A DNA stretch of 45,690 nt. Origin: an uncultured SAR86 cluster bacterium (GTDB lineage: Bacteria > Pseudomonadota > Gammaproteobacteria > Magnimaribacterales > TMED112). Of the stretch, positions 26,102 to 32,333 are shown in pieces; within the stretch, counting starts at the first letter, position 1; each line of letters begins with the position of its first letter. The stretch is taken from NCBI GenBank assembly GCA_902610995.1, contig CACLXU010000006.1:1-45690 (forward strand), given 5' to 3'. The notes below the pieces were generated by a model that saw only the letters and a program-made list of their open reading frames with translations, was not told the DNA's origin and did not search any database. The translations under genes were made by a program, and so were the position numbers.

Positions 26102-27033
26102 AAAAAGAAATCCTTCTAGCTAACCCTAGAGGATTCTGTGCAGGGGTGGAGAGAGCAATAGAAATTGTTGAGAAATCACTTGAAAAATATGATTGTCCTG
26201 TTTTTGTAAGACATCATGTAGTCCATAATAAAAAGGTTGTGGAAAACCTTGAGTCAAAAGGTGTAACCTTCGTAAAAGAGGTTGACGAGATTCCTGATGA
26301 GTCAATTGCAATATTCAGCGCACATGGAGTGCCTGAAGATGTTGAAATTAGTGCAAATTCAAGAAACTTTAAGTATTTTGATGCTACCTGTCCACTTGTA
26401 ACAAAAGTGCATCTAGAAGTAAAAAAACACGCTAAACTGGGAAGAGATATAATCTTGATTGGACATAAAGGGCACCCCGAAGTTGTGGGAACATTGGGAA
26501 GACATCCTAAACACAGCAATACAAAAATTATATTAGTCGAGACTGAAAATGATGTTAAGAGTTTAAATGTAAATGGTGAAAAATTAGCGTTTGTCACTCA
26601 AACGACTCTCTCAGTAGATGAAACAAAGGAAATAATATCTGCTCTAAAAAAGAAATTTCCAAAAATTGTTGGCCCAAATGCAGACGACATCTGTTATGCA
26701 ACACAAAATCGGCAGGATGCTGTGAAACAACTTTCTTTAGAGTCAGATTTAGTAATTGTAATTGGATCAAAAAGCAGCTCAAACTCGAATAGGTTAAAAG
26801 AGCTTGCAGAAAAGTGTGGTACAGCCTCGTGTCTTATCGATGGATATGAGGATTTCAATACTAATCTGCTTGAAGATAAAAAAGTAGTAGGAATTACTGC
26901 AGGAGCCTCTGCCCCAGAATACATTGTCGATGAATTAATTGCATTCCTCTCAAAATTTGATTTTAAAGATGTAAGAAATCTATCGAAAAATAATGAAAAT
27001 GTTAATTTTAAACTACCAAGGGAACTTCAATAA
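26074..27033 (+). CDS. ispH: 4-hydroxy-3-methylbut-2-enyl diphosphate reductase (MEP pathway)
   Basis: Final enzyme of the MEP pathway, reducing HMBPP to IPP and DMAPP with a [4Fe-4S] cluster. The ligands are Cys22 (GFCAGV), Cys106 (DATCPLV) and Cys207 (DICYATQ), matching E. coli Cys12, Cys96 and Cys197 with a constant offset. Length 319 aa. The N-terminal ten residues before EILLANPRG are lysine-rich and extra relative to E. coli. ATG 26074, inside the end of lspA, is the only canonical start that includes the conserved region. The stop overlaps the next gene by one base. Confidence 0.97.
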   Translation: MDKTSKNKIKKEILLANPRGFCAGVERAIEIVEKSLEKYDCPVFVRHHVVHNKKVVENLESKGVTFVKEVDEIPDESIAIFSAHGVPEDVEISANSRNFKYFDATCPLVTKVHLEVKKHAKLGRDIILIGHKGHPEVVGTLGRHPKHSNTKIILVETENDVKSLNVNGEKLAFVTQTTLSVDETKEIISALKKKFPKIVGPNADDICYATQNRQDAVKQLSLESDLVIVIGSKSSSNSNRLKELAEKCGTASCLIDGYEDFNTNLLEDKKVVGITAGASAPEYIVDELIAFLSKFDFKDVRNLSKNNENVNFKLPRELQ

Positions 27034-28262
27034 TGGAAAAGATCGCTGTTATTGGGGCAGGAATACTTGGGGTTAATACAGCATATTTTTTATCGAAAGC
27101 TGGATATGAAGTCACTGTATTTGATTCGGAAAGATATGCTGGCATGGAAACTAGCTTTTCTAATGCCGGTCAAATCAGTGCTTGTAATGCTGAAACCTGG
27201 ACTACATGGAAAAATATCTCCTCCGGAATAAAGTGGATGTTTAGGGATGATGCGCCGCTTAAATTTAATCCATTGCCAAATATTCTTGATCCATATGAAA
27301 CATATCTGAGGTATAAATGGTGTTCACACTTTTTTTTAACTTCTTTAAATGGTAGTCAAAAAATAAATTCAGAAAAAGGTTTTGAGATTTCCTTAAGATC
27401 AAGAGAACTTTATTTAAAAATTGTTGAGGAGGAGGGATTAGATTTTGATTTTCTTCAGAGAGGTATATTGCAAATTGTGGAATCAGAATCTCAACTTGAT
27501 GAACTTTATGCTAAAAAAAATTGGATCGAGAATATGGGAATAGAATGGGACTGCCTTGATAAAGAGGGAGTTTACAAAGTTGAACCAGCTCTTAAAGGAA
27601 ATGAATCAATTGTTGGGGGAGTCTTTACAAAATCCGATGCCTCTGGGGATATACACAAATTCTGTGTTGCACTCTCGAAGAATCTCAGAAAAAAATATGG
27701 AGTAACTTTTAAATTTTCAGAAAAAGTTAAAGATATTAGTGGAAATAGTAATCCTTATGTTGTCACGGAAATTGATCAATACCCATTTGATAAAGTTGTG
27801 ATTTGCGCAGGTGTGCAGTCACAGTTTTTTAGCAATAAGTTTAAAGATGGCTTAATTATTTATCCTGTAAAAGGATATTCGATAACGATTGATTTAGCAG
27901 ATAGCAAGTCAATAAGTTCTGCTCCCGTAGTGTCTGTAAAAGACGATACAAAAAAAATAGCATGTTCAAGAATTGGAAATCGGTTACGAGTTGCTGGAAC
28001 TGCCGAATTGGGTGGCTTTAATAAAGATATAAGACATGCAAGAATTCAGCCACTAGTTGAGTGGACAAAAAAAAGATTTCCCTCTGTAGAAACAGAAAAC
28101 TTTCTTCCCTGGGCTGGTTTAAGGCCAATGACATCAACAATGATGCCAGTTATTGGGCGATCAAAAAAGGAAAATATTTTCTATAATACAGGCCATGGAC
28201 ACTTGGGTTGGACTATGGGAGCTTATTCAGGAAAACTAATAACTGATATCATCAGAAGTTAA
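27033..28262 (+). CDS. dadA: FAD-dependent D-amino acid dehydrogenase (DadA-like)
   Basis: DAO-superfamily flavoprotein, probably oxidising D-amino acids such as D-alanine to 2-oxoacids with electrons passing to the respiratory chain. The N-terminal FAD motif is IGAGILGVNTAYFLSKAG; the DadA-specific ETSFSNAGQIS follows; the C-terminal segment PWAGLRPMTSTMMPVIGRS and the GHGHLGWTMGAYSG substrate/FAD motif are conserved. Length 409 aa (E. coli DadA 432). Substrate is uncertain; glycine-oxidase-like relatives are the main alternative. It overlaps ispH by one base and lies just before ampD, so a link to D-amino acids from cell-wall turnover is possible but inferred. Confidence 0.85.
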   Translation: MEKIAVIGAGILGVNTAYFLSKAGYEVTVFDSERYAGMETSFSNAGQISACNAETWTTWKNISSGIKWMFRDDAPLKFNPLPNILDPYETYLRYKWCSHFFLTSLNGSQKINSEKGFEISLRSRELYLKIVEEEGLDFDFLQRGILQIVESESQLDELYAKKNWIENMGIEWDCLDKEGVYKVEPALKGNESIVGGVFTKSDASGDIHKFCVALSKNLRKKYGVTFKFSEKVKDISGNSNPYVVTEIDQYPFDKVVICAGVQSQFFSNKFKDGLIIYPVKGYSITIDLADSKSISSAPVVSVKDDTKKIACSRIGNRLRVAGTAELGGFNKDIRHARIQPLVEWTKKRFPSVETENFLPWAGLRPMTSTMMPVIGRSKKENIFYNTGHGHLGWTMGAYSGKLITDIIRS

Positions 28263-28298: not shown

Positions 28299-28823
28299 AT
28301 GGAAATAGTTAACCACTTATTATCAAATGCAATATTTGTAAAATCACCTAATTTCTCTGACAGAACGATGCCAGCTGAAATAATCATCCTTCATTGTATT
28401 AGCTTACCTGAGGGCGACTATGGAAATAATAATGTCAGAGATCTATTTCTTAATAGACTCAATCTGAATTCTCATGAAACATTTATGAGTTTAAAAAATG
28501 TTTCAGTATCTTCACATTTATTTATTAAGAGAACTGGAGAAATAATTCAGTTTGTACCCTTTGATAAAGTAGCATGGCATGCTGGTGTATCAGATTACCG
28601 TGGCAGAAATGACTGCAACGAATTTTCAATTGGAATTGAATTGGAGGGAACAATAAAAGATTATTTCGAAGATATACAATATGAAAAGTTAAATGAAATA
28701 ATTTGTTGTCTAAGGAAAGAGTATAGACAAATGGAAGTTGTAGGTCATAAAGACGTTGCACCATCAAGAAAGCTTGATCCTGGAGAAAAGTTTGATTGGG
28801 AGAGGTTAAATGTTGTTAAGTAG
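28299..28823 (+). CDS. ampD: 1,6-anhydro-N-acetylmuramyl-L-alanine amidase AmpD
   Basis: Cytoplasmic zinc amidase that cleaves the peptide from anhydro-muropeptides during peptidoglycan recycling. Zinc ligands His32 (IILHCIS), His150 (VVGHKDVAP) and Asp160 (KLDPG) and the catalytic Glu114 (IGIELEG) and Lys158 correspond to the known AmpD set (His34, His154, Asp164, Glu116, Lys162). No signal peptide is seen, which separates it from periplasmic AmiD. Length 174 aa (E. coli 183). Its end overlaps the AmpG-like permease gene by 14 bases, fitting a joint recycling role. Confidence 0.95.
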   Translation: MEIVNHLLSNAIFVKSPNFSDRTMPAEIIILHCISLPEGDYGNNNVRDLFLNRLNLNSHETFMSLKNVSVSSHLFIKRTGEIIQFVPFDKVAWHAGVSDYRGRNDCNEFSIGIELEGTIKDYFEDIQYEKLNEIICCLRKEYRQMEVVGHKDVAPSRKLDPGEKFDWERLNVVK

Positions 28824-30351
28824 AAAAATCCCATTTAATTTTATTCTTTTAGGAGTATCTGCTTCACTTCCATATTTTGTGACTGGAGCTGCTTTAACAA
28901 GATGGCTAAGAGTAGAGGGGATAGATCTATCAGACATAGGTTTACTTTCTTTGGGGGGATTAATCGTTGCAGCAAATTTTCTTTGGTCACCTCTAATCAA
29001 CAGTTTAAAAATTCCTTTACTAGGAACATACATAGGATTAAGAAGATCATGGCTAGCAGCATCACAAATAACACTAGCAATCTTATTTTTTTCATTATCG
29101 ATGATAAGTCCCTCAGCTTCATTCATAAGTTTATTCATAATCGTTTTATTAATATTCTTTGTCGCCTCAGTACAAGATATCTCTATGGATGCGTACAGAG
29201 TTGAGTATGATGAATTTTTTGCAACTGAGAATTTAGCTAGTTCATATGTTGTTGGATGGAGGATTGGAACATATTTATTTGGAAGCGTAATTTTTTCTGC
29301 TGAATCTTCTCTATCGTGGCCTTTAATCTTAAAGATTCTATCTGTTGTAATGCTCTTGATGGTTATTGTTACACTTGCTTCCAAAAAAGTTAAAGAAGCT
29401 CAAATAAGTAAATTTGGTTTCAATGACTTTTTTCCAGCTCTAAAGCAATTTATTCAAAATAAAAACTTTATAGTCATATTGCTGCTAATTGCATTTTTTA
29501 GACTGTCCGATACTGTTCTAGGTTATATGGCATACCCTTTTTATACAGATGTTGGCTTTACCGGGAATGATTTAGCAGTCAAGAATTTATATAATTTTGT
29601 TGCTACTTTTGTTGGAGCTTTTTCTGCCGCTTTATTTATGCAAAAAACGTCTCTTCTAAGGGGCCTTTTTGTAGCATCACTTACTATTTTATTCACTAAT
29701 CTCTCATTTTCATATTTAGCCCTATACCCCACACTAAGCAATCTTATTTGGATAAACTTTATTGATACTTTTGCACAAGCATTTGCAACAGCTTGTTTTT
29801 TAGCATTTCTTGTCAGCCTAATTAACCGAAAATTCACAGCAATACAGCATGCAGTTTTTACCTCTCTTATGTTAGTCCCAGGATATGTGATGCGTGGATA
29901 CTCAGGCTTTTTTGTTGAAAGCCTTGATTACTATAATTTCTTTTTACTTTGTGGTTTTTTTGGATTGCCGTCAGTACTTTTAACTTATTACCTATTAAGG
30001 TCTACAGTCTTCTCTACAGAAAACATTCTTAAGTTATTTTCAATTCTTCTTATTATTTCAATTCTAATTGTTTCAATGGTAAATTTTGGTAATTATTCGA
30101 ATCAATTTAATGATAATTTGATCCATTTTAGTATGTATTTTTTCCTTACACTTGTTGTATTTGCTGCTAGCAAAAAAACTCATTACGTTGTCTTATTATT
30201 GCTGCTAATTATTATGGGGATATCTATTGAAATAGCACAATATTTTACAGGTTTGAGGTATTTTGAGTATATGGATATAATAGCCAATTCAATTGGAGTT
30301 TTTGGGGGATACCTAATATATAAAATTTCAAGTTATAACTTGAAAAATTAA
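28810..30351 (+). CDS. ampG: AmpG-type muropeptide permease fused to a VanZ-like domain
   Basis: Major facilitator protein resembling AmpG, which imports GlcNAc-anhydroMurNAc peptides. Family marks include the N-terminal SLPYFVTGAALTRWL, LWSPLINSLKIPLLG with GLRRSWL, and the VQDISMDAYRVEY motif. Residues 1 to about 400 hold the twelve-helix transporter. The remaining about 110 residues form four more helices with a VanZ-like pattern: HF at 438-439, Glu474, Gln477, Arg483, Asp489 and Asn493 (IEIAQYF, then R, D, IIANSIGVFGG). Total 513 aa against about 490 for E. coli AmpG, whose own C-terminus lacks these residues as far as I recall. The ATG lies inside ampD. The transporter call is firm; the VanZ call is by motif. 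Confidence 0.88.
   Translation: MLLSRKIPFNFILLGVSASLPYFVTGAALTRWLRVEGIDLSDIGLLSLGGLIVAANFLWSPLINSLKIPLLGTYIGLRRSWLAASQITLAILFFSLSMISPSASFISLFIIVLLIFFVASVQDISMDAYRVEYDEFFATENLASSYVVGWRIGTYLFGSVIFSAESSLSWPLILKILSVVMLLMVIVTLASKKVKEAQISKFGFNDFFPALKQFIQNKNFIVILLLIAFFRLSDTVLGYMAYPFYTDVGFTGNDLAVKNLYNFVATFVGAFSAALFMQKTSLLRGLFVASLTILFTNLSFSYLALYPTLSNLIWINFIDTFAQAFATACFLAFLVSLINRKFTAIQHAVFTSLMLVPGYVMRGYSGFFVESLDYYNFFLLCGFFGLPSVLLTYYLLRSTVFSTENILKLFSILLIISILIVSMVNFGNYSNQFNDNLIHFSMYFFLTLVVFAASKKTHYVVLLLLLIIMGISIEIAQYFTGLRYFEYMDIIANSIGVFGGYLIYKISSYNLKN

Positions 30352-30393: not shown

Positions 30394-32333
<1,940 letters not shown>

Follow-up and report, generated by a model that had tools for sequence, protein, structure and literature searches.

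The stretch of DNA analysed here (45,690 nucleotides, hereafter the window) comes from contig CACLXU010000006.1 of an uncultured SAR86 cluster bacterium, and its source assembly (GCA_902610995.1) comprises 861 kb at 80 % completeness. The window harbors an open reading frame for 513 amino acids, with an ATG start and no internal stop, that joins members of two known families in one polypeptide, an AmpG-type transporter core and a C-terminal VanZ domain (Table 1). As an earlier reading of the bare letters (here termed the sequence-only reading) had stated, the gene overlaps ampD; groES and groEL follow downstream. The dadA-like gene that precedes ampD was found only in some members of the genus, and where it is missing, ispH abuts ampD. 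Across SAR86, the string lspA-ispH-(dadA)-ampD-(DUF520)-ampG-vanZ-groES-groEL is widely conserved. The DUF520 gene (PF04461) lies upstream of ampG in f2 and f4 loci (L049:4448-4930, L036:4014-4496, L042:6153-6650, and others); in the f4 loci L049 and L036 it directly follows ampD, and it is absent from this position in the window and its genus. AnmK was found in all 21 genomes of the genus, which indicates that the recycling steps following AmpG are in place.

Table 1. Genes, domains and motif codons of the ampG-vanZ locus (positions within the window)
Feature	Position	Strand	Description and basis
dadA-like gene	27033..28262	+	D-amino acid dehydrogenase; PRK12409, 443 bits (below cut-off of 494); PF01266, 218 bits; synteny
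ampD	28299..28823	+	1,6-anhydro-MurNAc-L-alanine amidase; overlaps fusion gene (from 28810) by 14 nt; NCBIfam PRK11789 AmpD, 218 bits (above cut-off of 143)
ampG-vanZ fusion gene	28810..30351	+	
AmpG-type MFS core, residues 1-400	28810..30009	+	12 helices predicted, N-in/C-in; TIGR00901, AmpG structures 8zgz/9c3f, synteny, positive-inside count
VanZ (lipocone) domain, residues 401-513 and stop	30010..30351	+	Four helices; PF04892, vanZ_1; conserved in 17/17 complete genus copies
D435 and H439 codons	30112-30114, 30124-30126	+	Start of VanZ helix 2; H439 at the lipocone H2 position; both 56/56
E474 and Q477 codons	30229-30231, 30238-30240	+	ExxQ at the end of VanZ helix 3; E 56/56, Q 52/56
R483, D489, N493 and G496 codons	30256..30297	+	H3-H4 loop and helix 4; R, D and G 56/56
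groES	30394-30681	+	Constant downstream neighbour of ampG-vanZ in SAR86 (synteny, f1-f4 loci)
groEL	30690-32333	+	Constant downstream neighbour of ampG-vanZ in SAR86 (synteny, f1-f4 loci)

AmpG core and VanZ tail of the fusion protein

Using hmmscan, residues 10 to 393 matched the AmpG model TIGR00901 over positions 8 to 415 of 417, with 287 bits (E 1.9e-85), a score that does not reach the curated cut-off (350 bits). By sequence, the solved structures closest to the protein were AmpG chains (E 1.6e-38), with the similarity limited to residues 11 to 403. These results bear out the AmpG-like MFS core that had been recognized beforehand and suggest that the first 400 residues constitute an AmpG-family muropeptide permease, for which transport of GlcNAc-anhydroMurNAc-peptides would be expected from the family and from the partner genes.

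Beyond the core, four hydrophobic segments were located at about residues 403-424, 438-456, 459-478 and 487-507, consistent with the four further helices of the sequence-only reading. The search against Pfam VanZ (PF04892) that it had named as a check gave a clear match for the tail alone (residues 401-513; 45.2 bits, E 1.8e-11, gathering cut-off 30.1), and hmmscan of the whole protein yielded 37.1 bits (E 5.7e-9, residues 431-506, cut-off 30.1). The VanZ sequences of relatives scored 27 to 32 bits against the same cut-off of 30.1. Furthermore, the NCBIfam model vanZ_1 matched the tail at 35 bits, above its own cut-off. The model vanZ-A for the VanZ of glycopeptide resistance gave 17.5 bits (cut-off 250), and the immediate neighbourhood of the fusion gene contains no van genes.

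When the VanZ parts of 16 fusions were aligned with 40 separate VanZ sequences (n = 56), D435, H439, E474, R483, D489 and G496 proved identical throughout and Q477 was shared by 52 sequences; N493 is invariant among the fusions and is N or D in the separate proteins. The VanZ match exceeds chance, the motif residues being the invariant positions across the genus fusions and 40 separate vanZ genes. From the VanZ pattern listed in the sequence-only reading, Glu474, Gln477, Arg483, Asp489 and Asn493 were confirmed, and the HF pair was found at 439-440, not at 438-439. In lipocones, helices 2, 3 and 4 contribute a His, a Glu and an Asp, respectively, to the site; a fourth polar position lies close to where helix 3 ends, and the Asp is followed in helix 4 by another polar residue and, farther on, by a Gly (PMC12419801). 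By this definition, the His-Glu-Asp set is provided by H439, E474 and D489 in all 56 sequences; the downstream polar residue and later Gly correspond to N493 (N/D) and G496 (56/56). In our mapping, the complete site of the tail would therefore comprise H439, E474, D489, Q477 or R483, N493 and G496. VanZ-1 proteins are described as having an Asn in H2 and DxDDxxxN in H4, and VanZ-2 proteins as having RKxxH and DxxxD (PMC12419801). The marks in the SAR86 sequences are mixed, with a VanZ-2-like His in H2, a VanZ-1/Skillet-like ExxQ in H3 and ExxDxxxN or ExxDxxxD in H4, so that placement in VanZ-1 or VanZ-2 is not clean. Compared with the core, the tail has evolved several times as fast, and in seven close pairs its dN/dS was 0.19-0.35 versus 0.02-0.10 for the core. 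This indicates that the tail is maintained by purifying selection under weaker constraint than the core.

Loops on the side of the N terminus contain 21.3 Lys/Arg residues versus 5.3 on the opposite side (averages, 12 core and four tail helices). By the positive-inside rule, this charge bias would leave both termini in the cytoplasm and place D435/H439, E474/Q477 and R483-D489 at the periplasmic face; it supports but does not prove this location of the VanZ motif, with helix boundaries partly taken from a low-confidence model. The outward-facing site predicted for membrane lipocones has the same orientation (PMC12419801). AlphaFold, run with three sequences as input, returned pLDDT values of 36 (whole protein) and 61 (tail), both too poor for use; the tail was modelled as four helices at low confidence (pTM 0.38). 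A Foldseek search with this low-confidence model against the PDB gave no match and is uninformative on the fold, and a sequence search found no solved VanZ structure.

Distribution of the fusion and of the separate gene pair

The fusion was found in 17 of 17 genus genomes with a complete gene, with relatives at 40 to 58 % protein identity. A sequencing artefact or a stop codon lost in a single assembly is ruled out by the agreement of these 17 genomes. Three partial copies (G007, G013, G017) run into contig ends, and one genome of the genus (G005) gave no match to the fusion protein. The genus is the only one sampled for its family. Assembly G006 contains two similar fusion copies (G006:C25 and G006:C27), each 44 % identical to the window protein, which possibly stem from mixed strains in that bin. 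In the AmpG tree, the fused copies fall into a single supported group; since long branches make its deeper order unsafe, the tree was not used for dating the fusion. Elsewhere in the phylum, no such fusion appeared among the matches listed (349 genomes), where only that of the window passes approximately position 430 of the 518-position model, and no phage or viral match was found. The literature searched, with partial coverage and with PMC12419801 represented by its main text, contained no earlier description of the fusion, and no paper in it linked SAR86 with peptidoglycan recycling.

In the three other SAR86 families, ampG ends after about 420 codons, and a separate vanZ of about 110 codons comes next; their AmpG proteins have 412 to 452 amino acids and no VanZ tail. 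Of the 113 genomes in these families for which protein and Pfam searches located both genes, 112 have vanZ immediately after ampG and in the same orientation, the sole exception (G112) lying at a contig edge. The median gap between the ends of the ampG and vanZ matches was 22.5 nt in SAR86 genomes with separate genes; in the majority of the 40 loci extracted, vanZ begins within ampG, with an overlap of 1 to 20 nt. Two loci (L038, L048) retain vanZ beside ampG although ampD is about 3 kb away. In 129 gammaproteobacterial genomes outside SAR86 that contain both families, no adjacent pair was seen among the matches listed, whose positions were compared by eye, and a broad gammaproteobacterial ampG-vanZ pairing was rejected on this basis. 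The survey of the fusion and its neighbours across gammaproteobacteria, which the sequence-only reading had suggested, thus confines the pattern to SAR86 among the matches listed. Taken together, these data confirm that members of two known families are fused and that the fusion is fixed in this lineage, with further backing from the gene pair found across the order.

VanZ domains also occur in other contexts. A second VanZ match was observed within a 431-codon open frame of a SAR86 genome, away from ampG (G030:C3:65717-65959), and many non-SAR86 gammaproteobacteria (L087, L088 and other class loci) carry VanZ domains within open frames of 1100 to 1260 codons.

Eighteen SAR86 genomes possess ampG without a Pfam VanZ match, five of which have vanZ according to a SAR86-specific profile. 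In five genomes (G036, G054, G063, G117, G105), ampG is directly followed by a small membrane-protein ORF, which we take to be FxsA-like, and vanZ is missing. Separately, the f2 loci L122, L123, L127, L133 and L047 have an ORF of 141 to 145 amino acids between ampG and groES, at the place of vanZ, that presumably resembles FxsA. Only a gap of 134 to 142 bp separates ampG from groES in G098, G110 and G129, which have no vanZ. The VanZ frame is interrupted beside an intact ampG in G152, and G095 has an apparent vanZ remnant beside an intact ampG. Among the other genomes without a VanZ match, G027 and G029 end at contig edges and G043 is rearranged. Since several SAR86 genomes have lost vanZ and keep ampG, vanZ is not required for the persistence of ampG.

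Possible role of the VanZ domain and comparison with known systems

VanZ proteins are widespread and affect glycopeptide susceptibility, and they are poorly understood. For the locus described here, we lean towards a merger of neighbouring genes in which the AmpG permease carries a periplasmic-side, enzymatic VanZ lipocone that is tied to muropeptide recovery as an accessory to AmpG. The fusion would have arisen from two adjacent genes of the SAR86 ampD-ampG-vanZ-groES string. Its AmpG half would import periplasmic GlcNAc-anhydroMurNAc-peptides for AmpD and AnmK. The tail of 113 residues would form a four-helix VanZ lipocone in which His439, Glu474 and Asp489, joined by Asp435, Gln477, Arg483 and Asn493, cluster on what the charge bias suggests is the periplasmic side. 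Such a tail is most likely enzymatic and may cleave or exchange a head group that is attached through phosphate to a lipid of the outer leaflet; the most plausible lipid would be an undecaprenyl-linked wall intermediate. Contact of the tail with the permease could then co-locate or co-regulate lipid-carrier turnover and wall-fragment recovery. VanZ would be an accessory to AmpG and not a requirement, since some SAR86 genomes keep ampG without it.

Because related SAR86 keep ampG and vanZ side by side, a link of VanZ to cell-wall recycling is probable in this lineage. The tie to muropeptide uptake proposed in the sequence-only reading gains independent support from this order-wide pair, although vanZ can be lost. 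Adjacency alone is modest evidence, because the whole lspA-ispH-ampD-ampG-groES-groEL string is conserved in SAR86, and groESL is as constant a neighbour of ampG without being an obvious functional partner. The evidence is strengthened by the two loci in which vanZ stays by ampG despite a distant ampD, and by the fusion itself.

A more specific proposal, which we put forward tentatively, is that VanZ serves as a dedicated partner enzyme of AmpG at the periplasmic face, acting on lipid-linked wall intermediates and joining wall-fragment uptake to lipid-carrier turnover. If true, AmpG-VanZ would be a membrane unit in which VanZ has a role unconnected with antibiotic resistance. A variant in which VanZ feeds the permease by releasing its substrate from lipid II was considered unlikely: TelC-type cleavage leaves a diphosphate on MurNAc and not an anhydro sugar, so that such a cut would give no known AmpG substrate.

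Overlapping neighbours could also have merged without any functional link, through loss of the ampG stop codon in a streamlined genome, with VanZ doing an unrelated job. The 1- to 20-nt overlaps in unfused relatives, the conservation of the gene string as a whole, unrelated groESL included, and the loss of vanZ from several genomes that keep ampG would fit such an origin. We regard it as a live but less likely alternative, given that the pair is intact where ampD has moved off, that the adjacency is absent from the matches listed for the 129 other gammaproteobacterial genomes with both families, and that the fusion persists across a genus at 40 to 58 % identity with both halves under purifying selection.

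A similarly live but less likely alternative is that the tail is non-catalytic and stabilises or gates AmpG, or binds muropeptide- or lipid-bearing molecules without turnover. Such a role would agree with the attachment to a transporter and with the loss of VanZ from some lineages, E. coli AmpG likewise has extra hydrophobic C-terminal sequence (unrelated to VanZ), and the lower lipoglycopeptide binding to cells that is reported for VanZ of S. aureus and S. pneumoniae (PMC7146870) is compatible with binding. However, only the predicted catalytic and adjoining residues are invariant across fused and separate VanZ, and a structural role does not obviously need these.

That the tail is an ordinary AmpG C-terminus, called VanZ by chance on hydrophobic sequence, was refuted: non-SAR86 AmpG proteins also extend tens of residues beyond the MFS core, and spurious profile matches can arise on membrane helices, but the motif and profile are absent from the other SAR86 AmpG proteins, which end at 412 to 452 amino acids, and from E. 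coli K-12 AmpG (491 aa; no Pfam VanZ match, hhalign probability 0.1 % with the VanZ profile), and the tail passes curated cut-offs in two libraries with an invariant polar motif.

A lineage in which VanZ is permanently joined to a permease whose substrate class is known, with relatives that encode the two side by side, offers a defined pathway for testing VanZ. The locus further documents that a wall-recycling route (ampD, ampG, anmK), with a membrane component added, is retained in an abundant ocean clade whose genomes measure close to 1 Mb.

Among known systems, the TelC toxin domain and PTDSS1/2, the only lipocones cited as biochemically characterised, have the same kind of polar site (PMC12419801); their relation to the SAR86 tail is at the superfamily level only, and no match to a solved structure was obtained. 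The VanZ family (PF04892), in the VanZ-Skillet clade of the lipocone superfamily, shares the H2 His, the H3 ExxQ, the H4 Asp with Asn/Asp and the helix-capping Gly, together with a predicted four-helix unit and a predicted outward-facing site (PMC12419801). The SAR86 VanZ differs in being fused to or beside AmpG, and the terms AmpG, MFS, permease and muropeptide do not occur in the main text of that paper. E. coli AmpG (PDB 8zgz/9c3f) aligns with the MFS core end to end (residues 10-403) and shares the QDI...DA motif and the adjoining ampD, but it lacks the VanZ domain of the SAR86 fusion protein, which itself scores below the TIGR00901 cut-off. The lone vanZ of other SAR86 families agrees with the fused domain in gene position, motif and partner, and differs from it in that ampG and vanZ are two separate, usually overlapping genes.
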